IMG/VR virus record: IMGVR_UViG_3300032770_000003
Coordinates: 107,495-171,494 of that record
From: a virus
DNA length: 64,000 bases
Direction: 5' to 3' (one strand)
A program made the position numbers and the translations under genes. The notes under the pieces were generated by a model, which was given only the letters and a program-made list of their open reading frames with translations, was not told where the DNA came from and did no database searches. The stretch's first letter is position 1. Each line of letters opens with the position of its first letter. Positions 1-32,870 of this stretch are shown here, one piece after another.

Positions 1-376
1 CGCCGTGGAAATCTTTTTCACCAACCGTACAAACCCTGTGAAGGGAACGCGTCCGGGAGGAAATGCGCGCAAGTTCAAATACCTGCTCGAAAGTGGGTGG
101 CACATTCTGTGCATCATGGGTTCCAATCGTCGACGCAATCGACGACCCGGCAGTTTTCGTCCAGCCGACCAGATCACGGTTGAAACGGCCGATGCGGTAG
201 CGGCCTTTATCAAGCTGACCAAGCGGTACCCAACCATGATCCGTGAATATCGGGTGATTCGGTGTTCCGGTGAGCTTCTCACCAGTAGCCAGTACGATCT
301 CAACCATCTGGCCGGTGTACCAACGTCGGCTGACCTTTTTTGACGCACCACAGACGCGAACGTCGCCAGGGAAACA
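1..376 (-). mobile_element. Intein in the prohead protease (N-terminal part)
   Basis: Begins at Cys codon 376-374 directly after extein '...DVAITA'. Visible are block A (CFPGDVRV), the 'RRWYTGQMVEI' strand and block B (GTPNHPIFTDHG). It resembles the intein in the uracil-DNA glycosylase (28309-29121) block by block, so the two are the same family. The region between the Hint halves is overlapped on the + strand by an endonuclease-like reading frame ending at 343. The C-terminal splice junction is outside the window. Confidence 0.8.
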
Positions 377-844
377 GGCAGTAATCGCCACATCCTGCAG
401 CCAGCACTTGGCGATGGTATTCCCCTCTCGCCGAAGCACCTTGCCCTGGATCGAGAAACCAACCTTCCGATTGGACTCGTTGGCTGCGAGCGCGGTGATG
501 TGGTCCCACCAGTACTCAGCGCGCTCCTTGCCCTTATACAAAAACCCCTTCAACCAGAGCCCAGCCGGGGTGATCCGGCATTCCGCGGGTTCGCCGACCT
601 TGTGCTCAGGGCCCTCTTTGTGGTCGTCGTTGATGTAGCCGTACTTGAGGAAGTAGCCGTAGTCGATCCCGTTCTGACGGACCACTTCACCCTGAAGGTC
701 ACGGTCATCTGTGGACGCGACCCCTTGGATCCAGCGCTTGCCGTCCTTACTCTCAGCCTTGGAGATCTTCTCCACCGGCATGAAGAAGTGGAAGGTAGAA
801 CCGGTGCCCAGCAAACGGTCTTCTATACCGTCCACTAAGCGCAT
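1..844 (-). CDS. Prohead protease interrupted by an intein (3' end outside window)
   Basis: Capsid-maturation protease of the HK97 prohead type. I read it from ATG at 844, preceded by GGAGG at 8 nt and overlapping the end of the HNH gene. Extein residues 1-156 include GVASTDDRDLQGEVV and an 'INDDHKEGP' segment, the usual start of this fold with its likely catalytic His, then the 'VGFSIQG' strand. At position 376 the frame enters an intein beginning Cys-Phe-Pro-Gly, with Hint block B GTPNHPIF. The frame stays open to the window edge, so the C-extein and the catalytic Ser are not visible. In this operon the major capsid gene should follow further left. Family assignment is confident; the start is supported by the Shine-Dalgarno. 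Confidence 0.85.
   Translation of the reverse strand, partial: MRLVDGIEDRLLGTGSTFHFFMPVEKISKAESKDGKRWIQGVASTDDRDLQGEVVRQNGIDYGYFLKYGYINDDHKEGPEHKVGEPAECRITPAGLWLKGFLYKGKERAEYWWDHITALAANESNRKVGFSIQGKVLRREGNTIAKCWLQDVAITACFPGDVRVCGASKKVSRRWYTGQMVEIVLATGEKLTGTPNHPIFTDHGWVPLGQLDKGRYRIGRFNRDLVGWTKTAGSSIASTIGTHDAQNVPPTFEQVFELARISSRTRSLHRVCTVGEKDFHG
2..343 (+). CDS. Homing endonuclease-like ORF antisense to the intein (5' end outside window)
   Basis: An open frame on the + strand, opposite to all neighbours, entering from the window edge and stopping with TGA at 341-343, 31 nt before the intein N-terminus. Its C-terminal half parallels the + strand ORF at 28369-29049: 'FKYLLESGWHILCI' matches 'TKKLIELGWSVLYV', and 'EYRVIRCSGE' matches 'KYRVVRGSGE'. 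That companion has a Vsr-like (EDxHD) nuclease core. The last 25 residues are encoded by the complement of Hint block B, so part of the similarity could reflect the conserved intein sequence. Function is inferred from the more complete copy. Confidence 0.55.
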   Translation, partial: AVEIFFTNRTNPVKGTRPGGNARKFKYLLESGWHILCIMGSNRRRNRRPGSFRPADQITVETADAVAAFIKLTKRYPTMIREYRVIRCSGELLTSSQYDLNHLAGVPTSADLF

Positions 845-1362
845 GTCACGTGCCTCCATCTCTTCCCCTGAGTGATCAGAGCAATGGCGGAACGTGTGAC
901 ATTCAGCCTAGTGGCGATCCAACTCTGGGATCGCCCCAACCTTCGCCAGTTCAATACTTGCTGAATATCCGCTTCAGAAAGCTTAGCGCTACCACGCGGA
1001 TGAGCGGCGCCCTTTGGGGCATTGGTACGTCCCCACGCTACGCAATCAGCGCGATTCTGGCGGTGAGTACCCTCGCTCAGATGATCTGGATTCACACAGT
1101 GGCGGACATCGCAAGCGTGTAACGTTTCCATCCCCGGTAAGAGCTGGCGGCCTAGCTTCTGTTCCAAAACCAGCCTGGCAGCGATACGCGGACGACCGTT
1201 GAACCAAAACCACGCACAACCTTTGTTGTTCCTTGCACCTGTCCAGAGATGGCAAGGCCCCAGCCCTGGACGAGCCTCAGGCCCATTCAGGTCAATGAAC
1301 TTCCGGAACCGGAAGGTCTCGCCTTCACCAAGCAGCTGATCGTTGATCTCTGTGAGTCGCAT
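835..1362 (-). CDS. HNH endonuclease, free-standing
   Basis: A 175-residue protein with the phage HNH layout. An N-terminal 'CHLWTGARNNKG' strand is followed by 'METLHACDVRHCVNPDHL', containing the zinc/His residues and the N-x-x-H end of the motif, then 'GTHRQNRADC'. The C-terminal 50 residues form a helix-turn-helix (SQSWIATRLNVTRSAIA) that probably sets target specificity. It sits between head genes and overlaps the prohead protease start by 10 bp, as expected of an invasive homing gene. Nicking or cutting of DNA is inferred from family. No strong ribosome-binding site precedes the ATG. Confidence 0.85.
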   Translation of the reverse strand: MRLTEINDQLLGEGETFRFRKFIDLNGPEARPGLGPCHLWTGARNNKGCAWFWFNGRPRIAARLVLEQKLGRQLLPGMETLHACDVRHCVNPDHLSEGTHRQNRADCVAWGRTNAPKGAAHPRGSAKLSEADIQQVLNWRRLGRSQSWIATRLNVTRSAIALITQGKRWRHVTCA

Positions 1363-17320: not shown

Positions 17321-18037
17321 TCAAGCCTCCGCACACAACACGGACTGACGTGTGGTTTTTGTCAATCTCGTAATGTTGACTGAGCCGTCCGACTCCCTTG
17401 ATTGCACAGTTGCTAAAGCAACTTTCTTCATTACAGAACTGAGTCTGACACCACAAGCACGTGCCCACTGCTCTGGAGATTTGGCTGCCTTAGTACTGTT
17501 GCAGGGCTTGCACGCCGGAGCCAAGTTGTGTCGAGCGTGAAGTCCGCCCTTTACCAGAGGTACGATATGGTCAAGTGTCGTGGCGGCTCGTTTGCGGCAC
17601 CAAGCGCATTTGCCATCGAACGTACGAAAAAGGACGCGCAAGAATTCCAGACTAACAATCTCAACAGTGGCTGAGTGTATTCGTGCGCGACGACGATGCC
17701 AGCGCAACAAGGCACCAATTTTGCCCACAGGGCTGTAGTAATAGGCGCGGTTCTGTTTGAGTATCGCAGCCCTGTGCTTTGTATATCGAGAAGCGTGATA
17801 GGCCGCTATCTTTGTCTTGTTCGCCTGTCGGTAGGCGATGTCCTTTTCTCTGTTGTTACTGCGGTAACGTAATTCGATTTCACGAACCTTGGCGTAGTTG
17901 GTCTTGCGATAGACCTTGGCACGAAGGCGATGACACACACGACACCAACCTCCGTATCCATTCGGACAATTCTTATTCCTGACGAACGCACTGAGTGGAA
18001 GTGTGTGTCGACATTTGATACAAATGCGCGTGATCAT
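17321..18037 (-). CDS. HNH endonuclease, free-standing
   Basis: 238 residues. The N-terminus has 'CIKCRHTLPLSAF' and 'WCRVCHRLRAK' zinc pairs, then a basic linker. The HNH core follows: 'CAWCRKRAATTLDHIVPL' and 'NLAPACKPCNSTKAAK' (H-N-N residues with CxxC pairs). ATG overlaps the portal stop (ATGA). Insertion directly behind the portal, which itself holds an intein, fits a mobile gene. Confidence 0.88.
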   Translation of the reverse strand: MITRICIKCRHTLPLSAFVRNKNCPNGYGGWCRVCHRLRAKVYRKTNYAKVREIELRYRSNNREKDIAYRQANKTKIAAYHASRYTKHRAAILKQNRAYYYSPVGKIGALLRWHRRRARIHSATVEIVSLEFLRVLFRTFDGKCAWCRKRAATTLDHIVPLVKGGLHARHNLAPACKPCNSTKAAKSPEQWARACGVRLSSVMKKVALATVQSRESDGSVNITRLTKTTRQSVLCAEA

Positions 18038-21018
18038 TGTTTCATACCAGGGCCGCTTGCGGCCGCTTCATTATCTTGCCCGAAGTTGTCACTGTACTTC
18101 GGCCCAGCGGGTTTTCCTTCACCACCAGGACTACCACCGGGTTTACCTCCAGCTCCGGCGCCTCCTTGAGCCAATCCCTGCGCCTGAAGTGCGCTAATGT
18201 ATACCGGATTGAGGGGGACATCTCCACCTGGAAGTGGTGGCAGTGAAACCGTCTGTCTTCCTTCATTCAAACTCATGTAGCTGCTGATCTGCTCGACCAG
18301 CATCTCGTGTTTCTCGTTCTCGGACAGCTCATCGAGTCCGACGAACTCAAAGGTGAAGTGATCGTCGATCTTGTCGATGACGTGCTTGTTGATCAGCTTC
18401 GCGATGAACCGCAGAATTGGCTTGAGACCGCGGTCGCGCGAGGCTTTGAGCTTCCACTCCTGCGATGCCTCGAACAGCGGAGTCTGTTGCTGGCCTCCGT
18501 GGATCTCGAAGTTGATCTCAGCCGGATCGATCAGATACACGCCACAGGTGATCTTGATCAGATACTCAATCCACTTGCCGAACTCCATCTCCTGATTGGT
18601 CTTGGCGAGGTCAACCCACTCCAATCCTTCTGACTGGAGGATAGGAGTCTTCCAGCTGTTCTCGACGCCCGAGACCTGTGCGAGCCACTGCCGGCGGAAC
18701 CCTTCCAGCTGCTCAGGGGTGTAGTTGTCGCCCTTGAGGTTGAGGATGCCTTTGGGGGCAGTACCCTGAGAGAAGAACTTCCGGTTGTACTCCTCTGCGT
18801 AGAGGTGAGCGGTCACAATCGTGATGAGCTGCTCCAGCTCACCAAAGCCGTAACCCTGAATGTAGATGTCCGTGCGCGGGTTGCGAACCCCGAAGGACAG
18901 CTCGCTCGACGAGTAGACGTTCTCGATCTGGCCGTTGATGACCTGGACGTAGGCGATAGGACGGTTGCCGGAAAGCGGCTGTCCGTACTCACGCCCTTCG
19001 TAGAGGTTGGCGAAGCGACCCGGGACCGTGGGCTTGAAGCCCATGCGATCGTGGTACGACGTGTTCACGCCGACATAGCGATCGTCTGCTGCGATCCGGA
19101 TCGTGGCTGCATCGACCGCCCAAAACTCGTAGGGGAGGCCCATACCGTCGGGCACCACCTCGAAGCAGCAGTTGTGACTGGCGAAGCCTTCCGCTATGTA
19201 ACTATGATCCTCGTCAATCTCCAAGTTGAACACTGGGTAGTTCTCTACCCGCTCGCGAGTCACTTGTTCGATCTTGATGTAGAGGAATTCATCATCCTGA
19301 ATGAATGCACTACGCTGTTGCGTAGGAACAGGAATGTTCAGCAGGCGTCCATCGGACAGCGTCTGAAGACCTGTCCCACTGATGCGACCAACATACTTTT
19401 CTGAGTGATTGCGGCTATACGCCTCGTGCACGATCACCTGAGCCGGCACCACAGAACAACGGGTGTACATTCCCGCAGCTGCGAGCAATACCCGAAGTCC
19501 ACCAAAGAGCGCACGAGAGACTGTAGAAAAAGTCATAGAGGAGTTCGCTACGCTCCCATCACAGGCAAGGTAGCCGCGAAGGAAAGCCGCACGCACTTCG
19601 TCACTGGCTTCGAACATCCAAGATGGAACCCTCTTGTTGTGTGCACCATCACCGAAGTTCTCAGCCATGAAGCGGGCTAGCTCCACTGAGTTGCCAGTCA
19701 CTCCTGTGGCTGCACAGTCATCGTAACCAACGTCAGTCGTGCCAATTCCCAGGGAATCGAACACCTGGACGGCATGTATCAGCAGATGTTCATCATCTTT
19801 GTGGAAGGTCAAACCAACCGCGTTTGGTTCCTTGCGGGAGTTCTTTCCTGTGTGTCCGTTTGCTGTATAGAAGCCGCAAAAGGTCGCGAACTTCTCATCG
19901 AGGGTGACAGTATTAGGACGCGGAAGTGGTGAACGTGAAAAGCCGCGTTTCTCTGCTTCGTCCTTGACGAGCTGAATTGCTGGTCCGCCCCTGCGATAAT
20001 AGCCGCATAGAATTGCCCGCACAGTAACGACGTTGATGCCAGTCGCATCCGCAATCTCTCGATAAGGAATATTCGGGTACTGTCGAGCTTTGGTCTTGTC
20101 GAAGATCTGAAATTGAATCGGCTCAGTACGAATCGTAAGTTTGGGCTTTGGATAGACGAGATAGTGTTCGTCAGTCAGCTCCGAAGCTGGTGTCCAATCA
20201 GGCTTGATTCCCTTGCCGCGTGATGATGTCAGCCTGAACCATCGATCTGTAACTGCCAAGAACGGATGCTCGGAGGTGGCCCCGACTGACTGTCCACCAG
20301 ACCGGATCGTAATCAAATCACCCGTATACAAGCGGCGCATGCGCTCGACCACACGCCGAATGCGTCCGGTGTGGGTCCGGACTTCGGTTCCTACTTCGAT
20401 GGTCTCGATGGACTGAGGCACACCATCCGCGCACTCAATCTGCGTTGACGCAGGATGACACTGATCCAGAACCAAGCTGTCGCGGACGATCTTGCGCAGA
20501 AAGTTTTCGAAGTCGTCTCGATCGACACGCGCGTAGGGGTTGCGCTCAGCCCGACCACAGCGAAGGACGAAATCCTCCAGCTCCTTGATGAACTCCACCT
20601 CCGCCGGTGTCATCCGGTGGTCGGGGTCCTTGTGCCGAATCGCAAAGCCCAGCGAGCGCGTCCAGCGGTAGGGCTGCGCGAACGATGCCACCTGGGCCGC
20701 GCGAGTGTTGATGATCGCGTTTATGATCCCAAGCTGGGTGGCGATGCGCTTCAGGGTTTCGTAGGTCAGCGAGAAGCGACGATCCTTGTACCCCAGCGCG
20801 TACTGCAGACTGAGAGGATCGTGCATCCAGCTCTTCGGTGAGCGCTGGGGATCGGTGTTCGGGATCTGCTTCCAGGCTTTGCGCAGCTCTTGCGCGACGA
20901 TGACCGGAATGTGTTGCGTGGCCACCTGGGCAGCCGCCACCGTCTTGATGATCGACTCCATGTTGAGCCCGAGAGGGCCTGACATGGATGCACCTTTGTC
21001 CTTGCGCCGACGACTCAT
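18034..21018 (-). CDS. Phage portal protein with a LAGLIDADG intein
   Basis: 994 residues as translated. Exteins 1-186 and 617-994 together make a portal of about 564 residues. Portal-like landmarks are 'LGIINAIINTRAAQVASF', 'YGFGELEQLITIVTAHLYAE', 'FFSQGTAPKGILNLKG' and the late 'WVDLAKTNQEMEFGKWIEY'. The C-terminus is Gly/Pro-rich and probably disordered. The portal forms the dodecameric vertex ring for DNA packaging. Splicing is required for function, as the intein interrupts the 'SLVLDQ|CCFEVV' core strand. Translation starts at ATG 21018, just after the preceding stop. Confidence 0.88.
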   Translation of the reverse strand: MSRRRKDKGASMSGPLGLNMESIIKTVAAAQVATQHIPVIVAQELRKAWKQIPNTDPQRSPKSWMHDPLSLQYALGYKDRRFSLTYETLKRIATQLGIINAIINTRAAQVASFAQPYRWTRSLGFAIRHKDPDHRMTPAEVEFIKELEDFVLRCGRAERNPYARVDRDDFENFLRKIVRDSLVLDQCHPASTQIECADGVPQSIETIEVGTEVRTHTGRIRRVVERMRRLYTGDLITIRSGGQSVGATSEHPFLAVTDRWFRLTSSRGKGIKPDWTPASELTDEHYLVYPKPKLTIRTEPIQFQIFDKTKARQYPNIPYREIADATGINVVTVRAILCGYYRRGGPAIQLVKDEAEKRGFSRSPLPRPNTVTLDEKFATFCGFYTANGHTGKNSRKEPNAVGLTFHKDDEHLLIHAVQVFDSLGIGTTDVGYDDCAATGVTGNSVELARFMAENFGDGAHNKRVPSWMFEASDEVRAAFLRGYLACDGSVANSSMTFSTVSRALFGGLRVLLAAAGMYTRCSVVPAQVIVHEAYSRNHSEKYVGRISGTGLQTLSDGRLLNIPVPTQQRSAFIQDDEFLYIKIEQVTRERVENYPVFNLEIDEDHSYIAEGFASHNCCFEVVPDGMGLPYEFWAVDAATIRIAADDRYVGVNTSYHDRMGFKPTVPGRFANLYEGREYGQPLSGNRPIAYVQVINGQIENVYSSSELSFGVRNPRTDIYIQGYGFGELEQLITIVTAHLYAEEYNRKFFSQGTAPKGILNLKGDNYTPEQLEGFRRQWLAQVSGVENSWKTPILQSEGLEWVDLAKTNQEMEFGKWIEYLIKITCGVYLIDPAEINFEIHGGQQQTPLFEASQEWKLKASRDRGLKPILRFIAKLINKHVIDKIDDHFTFEFVGLDELSENEKHEMLVEQISSYMSLNEGRQTVSLPPLPGGDVPLNPVYISALQAQGLAQGGAGAGGKPGGSPGGEGKPAGPKYSDNFGQDNEAAASGPGMKQ
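19171..20460 (-). mobile_element. Intein with LAGLIDADG endonuclease in the portal
   Basis: 430 residues from Cys187 (CHPASTQIECADG) to Asn616 (ASHN), followed by +1 Cys. Block B is 'GATSEHPFLAV'. Two DOD motifs, 'FCGFYTANGHTG' and 'FLRGYLACDGSV', flank the homing domain, and the C-terminal block is 'VFNLEIDEDHSYIAEGFASH'. The first DOD acidic residue looks replaced by Asn, so cleavage may be weak. All splice residues (Cys1, His-Asn, +1 Cys) are present, so splicing should be active. Confidence 0.9.
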
Positions 21019-27987: not shown

Positions 27988-29400
27988 TCAGGCTGAGACG
28001 ATCTGGTGATCGAGCCACTCACGCACTGCACGCAGATCCTCATAGACCTGCGTTCGCGCCGATGGATTACGCGCTATGTAAGCTGGATGATACGATACCC
28101 GAGTAGGTCCGAACGCTGTGTTGTGCCAGATGCCCCGTAGGGATGACAGCGGTGCGGTACTGAGAGTAGGAGCCAAGAGCGCTGTGGTGGCGACTCGCCC
28201 GAGTGCCACGACAGTGAGCGGCCGCACCAACTCCAGCTGACGCTCAAAGTACGGACGGCACGCCGCCAGCTCCGCGGGTGCCGGCTGACGATTCCGGGGT
28301 GGCCTGCAGTTGGATACTAACATCCCATCTGCTATATACTGCCCGCTTCTGGTCTGCAAATTGTAAACATGACCACTAAACCACTTCCTTTCGATCTTCA
28401 GGATCTTAGCCAGCGCTACTTGCGTGGCGCTGGATTGGAACCTTTGTCCCGGGAAGTTCATATTGGGCAAGCTACGCTCAAGAAGTTGTTCCTGAAAGCC
28501 GGTGTCGCGGTACGAGACCGCTCCGCCGCTATGAAGACCCGGCTGCGCCAGATGACACAAGAGCAACGAAAGGAACTCACTGAAGCTGCGCACGCAGCTT
28601 GTCACGGCCGTGTACGCCCTCTCGAAGAATCTCAGCGAATTGCCGAAGCGCGTGCTCGCCGCTTTCAGGAAACAAAAAAGGTGGTCGGATCCTTCGAAGA
28701 TCTCTTGGTCAGTTGGATCAGACAGCGCGGGATTACTGTGACCCCGCAACAGCCTGTAAGGGGTTACAACCTCGATATTGGCATGTCCCCCGTCGCCGTG
28801 GAAGTTCACGTGGCTGTCAACCATCCATTTGCGGATGCCGACATCCGACAGCGTACGAAAAAGTTGATCGAACTTGGTTGGAGCGTGCTCTATGTCTGGA
28901 TCACCAAAGCCCACCCTCTTCAGCACAGGGTAGTGGATGAGATCATCGCCTTCCAACAGGCGCGAAAGAGGAAGCCGCCCTCTGCTGGAAAATACCGGGT
29001 GGTTCGGGGTTCCGGAGAGGTCACCCTTCTCCGTATGGACCTTGAGTAACGGCCCCTCATACCATCGTCGATAGATCTTCTCGATCCCTGAAGCACACAC
29101 CACAGTAGCTCCAGGAAAACACATCACTGGGTTAAGGATGTAGACCTGTTCCCGGGTGTAGCCCATCCAGGCGATGAACTCGTCGAGAATCGCACCCGCC
29201 CGGCCCACGAACGGAAGGCCCGACAGATCCTCGTTCTGTCCAGGCGCCTCACCAACGAACGCGACTGGCGGGCGAGCGACATTCCCAGTGCCGAATACGA
29301 CCTTGGTCCGCCCGCCCGCCAGTGGACACTTCGTGCAAGTCGAAGCCTCAGACCGGAGCGCGACCAACGCATCGATCTGCGCCGGTGTGCCCGGTTCCAT
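27988..29400 (-). CDS. Uracil-DNA glycosylase (family 4-like) with an intein
   Basis: 470 residues as translated. Exteins 1-93 and 365-470 give a 199-residue enzyme. It has 'CTKCPLAGGR' (first two iron-sulfur Cys), 'FVGEAPGQNEDLSGLPFVGR' (catalytic motif), then 'CRPPRNRQP' and 'AACRPYF' (third and fourth Cys), and 'SYHPAYIARNP'. It removes uracil from DNA and may protect or prepare phage DNA. The intein sits exactly before the third cluster Cys, so the [4Fe-4S] site exists only after splicing. Start ATG overlaps the upstream stop (TAATG). Confidence 0.85.
   Translation of the reverse strand: MEPGTPAQIDALVALRSEASTCTKCPLAGGRTKVVFGTGNVARPPVAFVGEAPGQNEDLSGLPFVGRAGAILDEFIAWMGYTREQVYILNPVMCFPGATVVCASGIEKIYRRWYEGPLLKVHTEKGDLSGTPNHPVFSSRGRLPLSRLLEGDDLIHYPVLKRVGFGDPDIEHAPTKFDQLFRTLSDVGIRKWMVDSHVNFHGDGGHANIEVVTPYRLLRGHSNPALSDPTDQEIFEGSDHLFCFLKAASTRFGNSLRFFERAYTAVTSCVRSFSEFLSLLLCHLAQPGLHSGGAVSYRDTGFQEQLLERSLPNMNFPGQRFQSSATQVALAKILKIERKWFSGHVYNLQTRSGQYIADGMLVSNCRPPRNRQPAPAELAACRPYFERQLELVRPLTVVALGRVATTALLAPTLSTAPLSSLRGIWHNTAFGPTRVSYHPAYIARNPSARTQVYEDLRAVREWLDHQIVSA
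28309..29121 (-). mobile_element. Intein in the uracil-DNA glycosylase, with antisense endonuclease gene
   Basis: 271 residues from Cys94 (CFPGATVVCASG) to Asn364 (MLVSN), +1 residue Cys. Block B is 'GTPNHPVF', C-terminal blocks 'GHVYNLQTRSGQYIADGM'. The penultimate residue is Ser rather than His. The ~165 central residues show no endonuclease motif in this strand. They are the complement of the + strand ORF at 28369-29049. The frame nevertheless stays open throughout. Confidence 0.85.
28369..29049 (+). CDS. Vsr-like (EDxHD-type) homing endonuclease, antisense inside an intein
   Basis: 226 residues on the + strand amid leftward genes, wholly within the intein interval. The N-terminus has HTH-like helices ('LSREVHIGQATLKKLFLKAG'), the linker is Arg-rich, then the nuclease core: 'SFEDLLVSWIRQRGI', 'GYNLDIGMSPVAVEVHV' and 'RQRTKKLIELGWSVLYVWIT'. 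This E...D...ExxH arrangement resembles Vsr-related homing endonucleases associated with inteins and introns. The last 20 residues are the complement of Hint block B. No strong Shine-Dalgarno precedes the ATG. A related ORF lies opposite the prohead protease intein. Confidence 0.7.
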   Translation: MTTKPLPFDLQDLSQRYLRGAGLEPLSREVHIGQATLKKLFLKAGVAVRDRSAAMKTRLRQMTQEQRKELTEAAHAACHGRVRPLEESQRIAEARARRFQETKKVVGSFEDLLVSWIRQRGITVTPQQPVRGYNLDIGMSPVAVEVHVAVNHPFADADIRQRTKKLIELGWSVLYVWITKAHPLQHRVVDEIIAFQQARKRKPPSAGKYRVVRGSGEVTLLRMDLE

Positions 29401-29905: not shown

Positions 29906-32014
29906 CTACCCTTTCTTGTGCCTGAGGCACTGGTCTATCTGATTCAGACCTTGACGAGGTAATTCGTCAAGCTTTTTCACTACCACAGTGTTCGAATATA
30001 TGCCAGTGACTGCGTCGGTCTCGATTCCGATCACTACGAGTTCAACGAGCTTTTCTACCGCCCTGGCACAATCCGTAGCGTAGTTGACATGCGCTGCGTG
30101 GTCCTCATCAAACCTCGGGAATCTCTGTCGACTATCGTCCACATCCCACACGGGCGCAACCGGCACCGGCTCCCCGTCGTTGAAGACGAAGAGGAGCTTG
30201 CGTTTCTCAGGCCGAGAGAGGAGCATCCGAGCGCCAAGCTTGACGGTCTCCCCATCGTAGGTGTTCGCCTTGAGGTTCTTAGGCATCTGCAGGAAGCGCG
30301 GCCCGGCCGCATACCAGGAATCGCCGAAGGACTTGTACTCCCCCAGCCAGAGATCCCCCCAGCGCTGATAGGTGGCCTGGACCTCGGGAGTCGTCGGCAG
30401 CTTGCGCCGGAACGCCACTTCGGGCTGAGAGGTTGACCAGCCGTAGCACGCGAAGGGAATCTTGAGCTGGTTGAACAGCTCGCCGAAGATGACGGCCGTC
30501 TGTGCGGCCAACAGGATCTTGCTCCCGTCCATCGACCCGGAGTGATCCACCAGCAGCAGTGCACAGGTATCGAACGCCTCGCCTGCGACCTGTGACCGAA
30601 ACACGTCCTTGCCGGTGCCGTTCACGACCTTGTACAGTCGCCGGCCGTTGAGCTTCCCGCGGAACTTGCCTTCCTCCCAGCGGCTCTGGGTGCGCGCCAT
30701 GAGCGCCCGCGTGAGCTTGAGCTTCATCGGGGCGACCATCGCGTTCGCCTGGTTCATGAAGCGGACGAACTCCGTGCGATCGCCCTCCTTGATCTTCTCG
30801 ATGGTGTCACCCTCCGTCGTGAAGATCTGGTAAGCGTGGCTACCCTTGCGCGCCTCTTCGACCGCTTTCTGGAGCAGCTCACCACGATCCGGAGCTTGTT
30901 TTTGCTCCGCACGCACCTCTTCCTCAGAGGGATCGAAGTTTGGTGCTGGCGCTGGGGCGGGGGCCTGTGACGGGGGCGCCTGCTCTTCTTCCTGGGACTC
31001 TTCCTCGCCACCACTTCCCTCTTTCGCGCCTTCGTCTTCCTCGCCCTGCTCGGATCCTGTGGCCGCACCCGCGGGCGGAGAGTCGTCTTCCGACTCATCC
31101 TCCTGTTCCGCGTCCCCCCCGTCGGCCTCTCCATCACCCTGTTCAGAGTCGTCCTCTGATCCCTGCGGCGGGGCCGTCTCCGTCTCTTCCGTCTCCTCAG
31201 GATCAGAATCCTCAGACTGCGACTGTTGCGGTTGGGGCTGCGGTTGCTCCGGCTGCTCCGGCTGCTCGAACATCGCCTGTTCTTGCGGCGACGGGGGCGG
31301 CGGGGGCGGCTGGTTCGACTGCTGTTGCCGTGGCTGCTGCTGCGGCTGTTGCGGCTGTTGCTGAGGGGGCGGCGGCGGGGGCGGGGGTGGCGTCGTGTCC
31401 TTCAGCCGTTCGAGAAGGATCTCAGCAAGCTCCCGCACCTCACGGGTGCTCCGAGCTTCGAACCGCGCTCGGCGGAAGAGGTCTTCTCCGTCCCGCTGAA
31501 AGCGCGCGAGGATCTCAGGCTCGACCACCGTCTGCAGAAACCAGTGATCGTAGTTGAATCCCGTGGTCGCGTACGCGAGCCCGGTGTAGAGGAATTTCCC
31601 GAGTGCCGTGCGTGTCGCCCAGGCTTGCGCCGGATTCGCCGCGACCTTGCGCAGATCCCACTCTGCGGCAAAATCGAAGTTGGATTGCGCTCCGGGGTAG
31701 ATGTCGATCCACCTCTGCTCGATCCGCGGATCCTCCAGCGCGTTCAGCGCGAGGAAGAGCTTGGGCTTGCGCGCCAGCTCCTCCAGCATGTCGAAGTCGC
31801 TGTGGACGCAATGAGACGCTTCGTGGTCCAGGTAACCCTGTGTCGCGCGCAGCAGCTCGTCGCTGGCATCGTCCGGGAGCAGCGGCAGATAGATCGTCTT
31901 GCCGTTGGTGCGAGGTTGTGCGTGCGTGAAGATGACCTTGAGCTTCCACTGCTCCACCAGGATGCGCGCCAGGCGTTCCAGCGATGACTCGACGATTCGA
32001 AGCTGCTGCGTCAT
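29906..32014 (-). CDS. CobT-like VWA-domain protein
   Basis: 702 residues from ATG 32014. The N-terminal 190 residues include a zincin-like 'YLDHEASHCVHSDFDML'. The middle is a long Pro/Gln run, then acidic Glu/Asp/Ser and Ala/Pro tracts. The C-terminal VWA domain has MIDAS 'LLLVDHSGSMDGSKI', preceded by 'GKFRGKLNGRRLYKVVNGTG', as in CobT. With the CobS-like ATPase at 24592 it forms a probable AAA+/VWA pair. Phages do carry such CobST-like pairs; the physiological target is unknown. Confidence 0.8.
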   Translation of the reverse strand: MTQQLRIVESSLERLARILVEQWKLKVIFTHAQPRTNGKTIYLPLLPDDASDELLRATQGYLDHEASHCVHSDFDMLEELARKPKLFLALNALEDPRIEQRWIDIYPGAQSNFDFAAEWDLRKVAANPAQAWATRTALGKFLYTGLAYATTGFNYDHWFLQTVVEPEILARFQRDGEDLFRRARFEARSTREVRELAEILLERLKDTTPPPPPPPPPQQQPQQPQQQPRQQQSNQPPPPPPSPQEQAMFEQPEQPEQPQPQPQQSQSEDSDPEETEETETAPPQGSEDDSEQGDGEADGGDAEQEDESEDDSPPAGAATGSEQGEEDEGAKEGSGGEEESQEEEQAPPSQAPAPAPAPNFDPSEEEVRAEQKQAPDRGELLQKAVEEARKGSHAYQIFTTEGDTIEKIKEGDRTEFVRFMNQANAMVAPMKLKLTRALMARTQSRWEEGKFRGKLNGRRLYKVVNGTGKDVFRSQVAGEAFDTCALLLVDHSGSMDGSKILLAAQTAVIFGELFNQLKIPFACYGWSTSQPEVAFRRKLPTTPEVQATYQRWGDLWLGEYKSFGDSWYAAGPRFLQMPKNLKANTYDGETVKLGARMLLSRPEKRKLLFVFNDGEPVPVAPVWDVDDSRQRFPRFDEDHAAHVNYATDCARAVEKLVELVVIGIETDAVTGIYSNTVVVKKLDELPRQGLNQIDQCLRHKKG

Positions 32015-32029
32015 TGTCCCCTCGACAGG

Positions 32030-32049
32030 AGGTCGATCCGCACAGAAGT
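32030..32049 (-). promoter_or_regulatory. Start-associated element
   Basis: Exact leftward consensus copy, 15 nt before the CobT-like ATG. Its first base overlaps the stop of the preceding gene (TGACTTCTG). Confidence 0.85.
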
Positions 32050-32870
32050 CAAAATCGCCAGTGCGCGCGTATAGCCTTGGCCAGCTCGTGAGCTGCAAGC
32101 GAAGTGCGCACTGTGACACGGTAACTACAGGTCGCGTACTTCGACGCCACCTTCGCCGGTGTCGGAGTTGGAGGTTCGAGCTGGTGCAGATCCGCCTGCA
32201 TGTAGCGAAACGTACCGAGTGCCGCTGAGATCTCAGTCAGCCGGTCTATCAGCTCGGGTACGATGCCAACGAAAGCGTATTTACCGGTGTCAAGCCAGAA
32301 TCGAACGATCACGAGTCCGTCACGCATCACACTGCAGTAGCTCGCAGTCAGAGCGAGCTGATACTGCCCGCGGTGCGCATACTGCGTTGCAAAATCACGC
32401 GCCGACCACATCAGCGGCAGGACGGGCAGCTCCCCTAGCGTCCGCCGGAATTCAGCCAGGAACGAGTCGACGGCGCGACCCATAGGCACATACTCGCGCC
32501 TCGCGTATTTATCGGTACCGGCCCAGCGGCTCTTTTTGGTGGCGGGCTTCTTTCCGTGCTTCGCGGGCGGGGACGATGGACGCGGCGGGGGCGGCAGCGG
32601 ATCTTGTTTCAAGGGGACTACGAGCTGGGGACCGCTGGCCACAGCTACCGCCTCAGTGCGAAGCTTCCAGGCGCGTTCGCAGAAGCGCGCGAGACCACAG
32701 CTCGGTGCTTCGCCACAGGGCCCTTCGCCTTCGACCACGAAGAGACCAAAGCAATCAGTCTGATCAACCGTCGCCGTCTCCTCAGGACGCATCGAGCGCT
32801 TGATTAGCTTGACCACCGGGACTAGCCACGGGTCACGGGCCCATTCAACCTGCGGAAGCTCGTTGGACAT
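32049..32870 (-). CDS. Hypothetical protein, 273 aa
   Basis: The N-terminal half has Cys residues ('CFGLFVVEGEGPCGEAPSCG') that could bind zinc. A Pro/Lys-rich linker follows, then a folded C-terminal half ('SVMRDGLVIVRFWLDTGKY'). No family recognised. Preceded by GAGAGGT and by a good promoter-like sequence with a TTGAC palindrome at 32899. First gene of a transcription unit leading into the CobT-like gene. Confidence 0.6.
   Translation of the reverse strand: MSNELPQVEWARDPWLVPVVKLIKRSMRPEETATVDQTDCFGLFVVEGEGPCGEAPSCGLARFCERAWKLRTEAVAVASGPQLVVPLKQDPLPPPPRPSSPPAKHGKKPATKKSRWAGTDKYARREYVPMGRAVDSFLAEFRRTLGELPVLPLMWSARDFATQYAHRGQYQLALTASYCSVMRDGLVIVRFWLDTGKYAFVGIVPELIDRLTEISAALGTFRYMQADLHQLEPPTPTPAKVASKYATCSYRVTVRTSLAAHELAKAIRAHWRF

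Follow-up and report, generated by a model that had tools for sequence, protein, structure and literature searches.

So far as is known, inteins acquire mobility by fusion of an endonuclease into the splicing protein. A different pairing is found in the fractured genes reportedly described by Dassa et al. in 2009, in which split inteins are accompanied by a free-standing Vsr-like endonuclease gene between two half-genes. Other described systems resemble parts of the locus analyzed here: I-Bth0305I is listed under group I intron endonucleases (PMC3943268), and a phage methylase harbors the ShiLan domain, an HNH gene lying out of frame (PMC11855218). The latter paper also cites, for overlapping frames, a 2025 preprint on the non-canonical architecture of actinobacteriophage inteins. 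Here, we describe an intein within a 64,000-nucleotide stretch of viral DNA (the window; positions 107,495 to 171,494 of IMG/VR record IMGVR_UViG_3300032770_000003), in which a putative homing endonuclease gene (HEG) is encoded on the opposite strand of the intein coding sequence.

Results

An intein without an endonuclease domain in a uracil-DNA glycosylase gene

The leftward gene was assigned to uracil-DNA glycosylase (UDG) family 4 on the basis of a TIGR00758 match (1.1e-45) for the whole 470-aa protein. Its parts are as follows.

27988-29400, - strand: UDG gene with intein, open frame of 470 aa
29122-29400, - strand: N-extein, UDG family 4
28309-29121, - strand: intein, 271 aa in a contiguous frame, Cys1 to Asn271, then Cys+1
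28999-29010, - strand: Hint block B, TPNH (T38-H41), with T38 and H41 invariant in the family
28306-28381, - strand: Hint blocks F/G (GHVYNLQTRSGQYIADGMLVSN) and Cys+1
27988-28308, - strand: C-extein, the rest of the glycosylase including the stop codon

The intein is inserted immediately N-terminal to the Cys in (V/I)KCRPPxNRxP, a conserved UDG motif, and intein-less phage UDG relatives align continuously through the junction. Position 1 is Cys in the window copy and in 67 of 67 others checked, and the block B TxxH signature is present in 68 of 69 inteins, as TPNH at residues 38-41 in the window copy. The latter terminates in Asn271 with Cys at +1, a position occupied elsewhere by Cys (66/67) or Ser (1/67). 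A penultimate His is usual, but not universal, in class 1 inteins; the window intein carries Ser here, and the others have His (30), Ser (28) or another residue (9; n = 67). Matches of the intein frame to solved inteins, by profile and by fold, also support assignment of the 271-aa insert as an intein with class 1 hallmarks, which would be expected to splice.

Domain and profile searches found no endonuclease domain in the 271-aa frame. Its AlphaFold2 model comprises confident Hint halves and a mostly disordered middle, with residues 127-230 predicted to be disordered and residues 80-125 mostly ordered. An earlier note, made from the sequence of the window, had described a continuous 271-aa intein frame lacking an endonuclease, with an HEG antisense inside it, and both the domain searches and the coordinates confirm this description. 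The PHROG family phrog_15127, labeled 'head protein', matches intein-frame residues 1-198 of the UDG (5.7e-30), and this head-protein family therefore evidently includes intein sequence; part of the match is the antisense shadow of the nuclease.

The opposite strand encodes a predicted nuclease with a helix-turn-helix

The HEG has the following predicted organization.

28369-29049, + strand: antisense homing endonuclease gene, 226 aa plus stop codon, entirely within the intein
28396-28497, + strand: HTH (resolvase-like) part, residues 10-43, with helices at 10-18, 23-29 and 34-43; HTH_7 and PDB HTH matches in the family
28690-28971, + strand: Vsr/DUF559/I-Bth0305I-like nuclease domain, residues 108-201, with invariant or near-invariant residues; top Foldseek match 3r3p
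28696-28698, 28774-28776, 28801-28803 and 28807-28809, + strand: nuclease-domain residues E110, D136, E145 and H147, respectively

Codon boundaries of the two genes coincide, such that HEG residue h faces intein residue 252-h and middle bases face middle bases. Read on the opposite strand, the codons of HEG residues 206-216 (GKYRVVRGSGE) give exactly LSGTPNHPVFS, the intein sequence surrounding Hint block B, and the tail YRVVRGSG is complementary to the block itself, as the earlier note had proposed for the last HEG residues. In the same way, the PVAVE strand of the nuclease is complementary to DFHGD, a conserved motif in the intein frame.

The Pfam match of the HEG was weak (MTES_1575, 1.8e-5, short of the curated cut-off). 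Structure prediction yielded a confident model (AlphaFold2, mean pLDDT 92.8), with the HTH at the N terminus and the nuclease at the C terminus, in agreement with the Vsr-like nuclease and HTH that had been proposed from the sequence. The top Foldseek hits were 3r3p_B and 3r3p_A, both I-Bth0305I (prob 1.00, E 3e-3). A family profile built from one alignment (A1) matched I-Bth0305I at 2.1e-5, as well as resolvase-type HTH structures; with a profile built from a second alignment (A7), I-Bth0305I was absent among hits at E <= 0.01. The likeness of the predicted protein to I-Bth0305I is remote. The EDxHD residues anticipated by the earlier note were recovered in part: E110, D136 and E145 are conserved in the nuclease family, whereas the His, present in the window protein as H147, is variable across it. 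Based on these comparisons, the HEG product is a probable homing endonuclease that combines an HTH with a PD-(D/E)xK nuclease and would be expected to cleave DNA.

Candidate promoters in the last splicing block

28311-28340, + strand: sigma-70-like promoter match for the antisense gene, TGGATA-N18-TATACT, inside the coding DNA of intein block F/G

This sequence match is the only promoter-like site in 28000-29400, and its percentile (0.77-0.81) is not significant alone. No Shine-Dalgarno sequence for the HEG was visible. Across 68 non-redundant inteins, HEG-directed sigma-70-like promoters in block F/G DNA outperformed synonymous recodings (mean percentile 0.81, KS p about 1e-14), and several family promoters contain exact TTGACA and TATAAT elements. 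The extein controls showed no excess (0.47 and 0.41); for sites pointing the opposite way, the excess was smaller (0.61). This enrichment suggests that HEGs of the family are transcribed from their own promoter inside the intein.

The arrangement is conserved across phages

Because long antisense open runs are common in this GC-rich phage, the HEG open frame alone is not evidence for a gene: stop-free antisense runs of at least 250 codons occur in 7 of 17 other CDSs, a run of 240 codons is unremarkable in this genome, and ORF length was rejected as an argument. The case for the HEG is made instead by homology and by conservation across phages.

A translated search of public phages found HEG relatives in 126 records, including phages of Salmonella, Gordonia, Pseudomonas and Klebsiella, nearly all antisense to head-morphogenesis genes. 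We assembled 115 loci (76 clusters at 75% identity) from public phages, IMG/VR and one bacterial genome. In 112 of these, the intein frame is open and the nuclease is encoded antisense within it; the register never varies, and neither frame contains a stop. The overlap of the intein gene with the nuclease gene covers about 89% of the length (family median). AT content among the loci reaches 62%, and both frames are still stop-free in phages of about 60% AT. From host-gene codon usage, approximately 360 stops would be expected for the intein frame and 495 for that of the nuclease, compared to none observed in either (log10 P about -186 and -255, respectively). The earlier note had treated the arrangement as exceptional; the antisense endonuclease itself holds up, but it is not a one-off.

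The same note had named a lack of homologues outside the intein complement as grounds for doubting the + strand ORF. Three such homologues were found (L023, L097 and L115), all free-standing; the three have 10, 5 and 9 antisense stops. L023 (Acinetobacter phage IME285; L023 positions 413-1348), with 10 of these stops, adjoins an uninterrupted MuF gene, and it is the only nuclease annotated among the 21 annotated phage regions examined. The free-standing forms look secondary because the tree nests L097 (sister to the embedded L102) and, with weaker support, L023 among embedded copies. The resemblance of the L023 and L097 antisense strands to the intein profile was set aside as proof of intein descent, since nuclease homology can cast such a shadow by itself.

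When viral contigs were scanned with the endonuclease of the window's own element, or with a neighboring gene, no close relatives were found. In one sampling of 274 bacterial genomes from a single class, the sole match was the known Atlantibacter copy. Pattern scans were run on sub-alignments, the 23-row alignment being too diverse. Overall, the comparisons indicate that the antisense-endonuclease intein is an old architecture, widespread in phages and almost never annotated.

Selection acts on both frames

With no close relatives of the window copy, selection was measured on independent pairs of family members. Third-position changes were more frequent at doubly silent Gln codons (CAA/CAG, 0.34) than at Glu/Lys codons silent only in the nuclease (0.14; odds ratio 3.2, p 1e-8). 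The same effect was observed in the central linker alone (p 1.7e-6), whereas the extein control showed no such excess and ran in the opposite direction. Central changes in the intein frame were milder than permuted changes by about 7.7 sd, compared to -1.6 sd for the extein permutation control.

Relative to doubly synonymous changes, central rates were 0.13 (0.10-0.18) for HEG-nonsynonymous and 0.63 (0.45-1.07) for intein-nonsynonymous changes, and rates in the N-terminal Hint region were about equal (0.56 nuclease-altering, 0.49 intein-altering). From this contrast we infer that the nuclease dominates the middle, and that the intein constrains its own ends and is weakly selected in its middle beyond staying open. 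The constraint on both strands suggested in the earlier note was thus recovered among family members, as purifying selection that is strong on the nuclease frame and weak to moderate on the intein frame. The converse that it had considered, relaxed selection on the + strand ORF, was not seen, the nuclease frame being the more constrained.

Host genes and mobility

Host genes of the family include MuF and related minor capsid proteins, terminase, dCMP deaminase and UDG; by inspection, a prohead-protease-like gene in the window's genome is probably also a host. Insertions precede Cys in all but one case checked. Empty MuF and UDG sites occur in related phages, and Salmonella phage TUMS_E6 lacks the 816-bp MuF insert of LP31 with a precise junction. 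Intein identity can be either higher or lower than that of the flanking exteins: in the pair L012-L038, intein identity is 0.93 versus 0.73 and 0.81 for the flanks, and in L001-L007 it is 0.86 versus 0.94 and 0.96. The high L012-L038 intein identity may in part reflect double constraint rather than transfer.

Other elements in the same genome

Part of a second element of this kind lies at the edge of the window.

1-376, - strand: second intein of the antisense-endonuclease kind, part in window (G000:107025-107870), in a probable prohead protease gene (window 1-859)
1-343, + strand: second antisense endonuclease gene, part in window, 33% identical to the first

This second intein is inserted before Ser. 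Immediately upstream of the probable protease gene that bears this intein is an HNH_3 endonuclease gene (835-1362, - strand). The portal protein gene (18034-21018, - strand) carries a canonical intein with an in-frame LAGLIDADG domain, and one genome therefore holds both intein architectures. Elsewhere, a weak Hint match lies within a 1258-aa open frame (G000:55567-55770, - strand), and 29906-32119 (- strand) encodes a CobT-like VWA protein with a long linker rich in proline, glutamine and glutamate.

Discussion

We consider it very likely that this locus is a mobile intein, with the gene for its homing endonuclease on the opposite strand of the intein's own coding DNA. By analogy with what is known of these protein families, leftward translation would yield a precursor of the glycosylase; its Hint halves would then excise 271 residues and restore the Cys of the conserved CRPP motif in UDG. 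The promoter in the block F/G DNA would direct transcription of the + strand ORF, giving the 226-aa HTH and PD-(D/E)xK nuclease. This enzyme may cut intein-less UDG alleles of co-infecting phages close to the insertion site, and repair would copy the intein and endonuclease gene together. An antisense promoter of host type could supply the endonuclease early, ahead of late genes.

The locus could be read in other ways. If only the intein frame were a gene, the + strand ORF would be a compositional shadow of a conserved insert, and both the frequency of long antisense open runs in the HEG register in this GC-rich genome and the complementarity between the conserved DFHGD motif and the nuclease active-site strand, by which either could be mistaken for the other, are in keeping with this. 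It is strongly contradicted, however, by the lack of stops, which extends to phages of about 60% AT, the greater conservation of the HEG frame (central nonsynonymous rates of 0.13 vs 0.63), its confidently predicted fold, for which nuclease and HTH relatives are known, its free-standing homologues and the family-wide enrichment of its own promoters, and we give it almost no weight. Conversely, the nuclease might be the only functional sequence, with the intein middle serving as unconstrained filler that needs no more than an absence of stops. Of the alternatives this one deserves the most attention, although we still judge it unlikely: the predicted disorder of residues 127-230 and a central intein-nonsynonymous rate whose interval extends to 1.07 speak for it, but central intein-frame changes are both milder than permuted ones and biased away from intein-altering sites, exteins show neither effect, and residues 80-125 are mostly predicted to be ordered.

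The antisense gene could also be a domesticated nuclease with another purpose, such as restriction, repair or keeping out competing phages. Members of the Vsr/DUF559 superfamily serve several functions, and cutting intein-less rivals would itself serve exclusion; nevertheless, the position of the gene inside an intein, its sporadic insertion in related phages, the diversity of host genes and the identity of the nearest solved fold, a homing endonuclease, make this improbable. A mobile intein with an opposite-strand HEG accounts best for the data. Whether the family constitutes an undescribed class of mobile element, with an opposite-strand mobility gene, its own promoter in the last splicing block, a single origin, spread through many phage lineages and at least 4-5 host genes, and occasional free-standing release, is in our estimation an even bet.

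On the mobile-intein reading, the family represents a second solution to intein mobility, in which two proteins are made from two strands of about 0.8 kb, in one register across very diverged phages. Long antisense dual coding is also seen here with unusual clarity in a natural setting, and selection can be measured for each frame. The overlap suggests a reason for the persistence of a selfish gene: the two genes may be tied together because frameshifts or deletions in the HEG would break the intein of the host protein. In addition, conserved 'domains' of phage head proteins can be explained as antisense shadows of the nuclease, and annotation misses the antisense endonuclease gene nearly everywhere.

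None of the literature that we searched describes antisense endonuclease genes in inteins, the 2025 actinobacteriophage intein preprint lying outside that search. The Gordonia phage inteins found here are probably treated in that preprint, and part of the antisense arrangement may be described there, for example in those cases. Within our search, the nearest description is the ShiLan element, in which an endonuclease is likewise concealed: the insert is open in the frame of the host gene but encodes the nuclease in a different one. It differs in its nuclease family (HNH) and in having no splicing domain, and the antisense arrangement is not described there (PMC11855218). I-Bth0305I (EDxHD; PDB 3r3p) shares with the HEG its nuclease fold, a profile match and attached DNA-binding parts, whereas the HEG lies antisense to an intein and its family keeps E-D-E rather than strict EDxHD. 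The fractured genes pair the same components, intein halves and a nuclease of the Vsr-like superfamily, but here a single contiguous intein gene overlaps the nuclease. Finally, canonical LAGLIDADG inteins also have a Hint domain, insertion at a conserved motif before Cys or Ser, and an endonuclease that travels with the intein; in those the endonuclease forms part of the intein polypeptide as one of its domains, whereas here it is a separate protein encoded on the opposite strand of an intein that has no endonuclease of its own.
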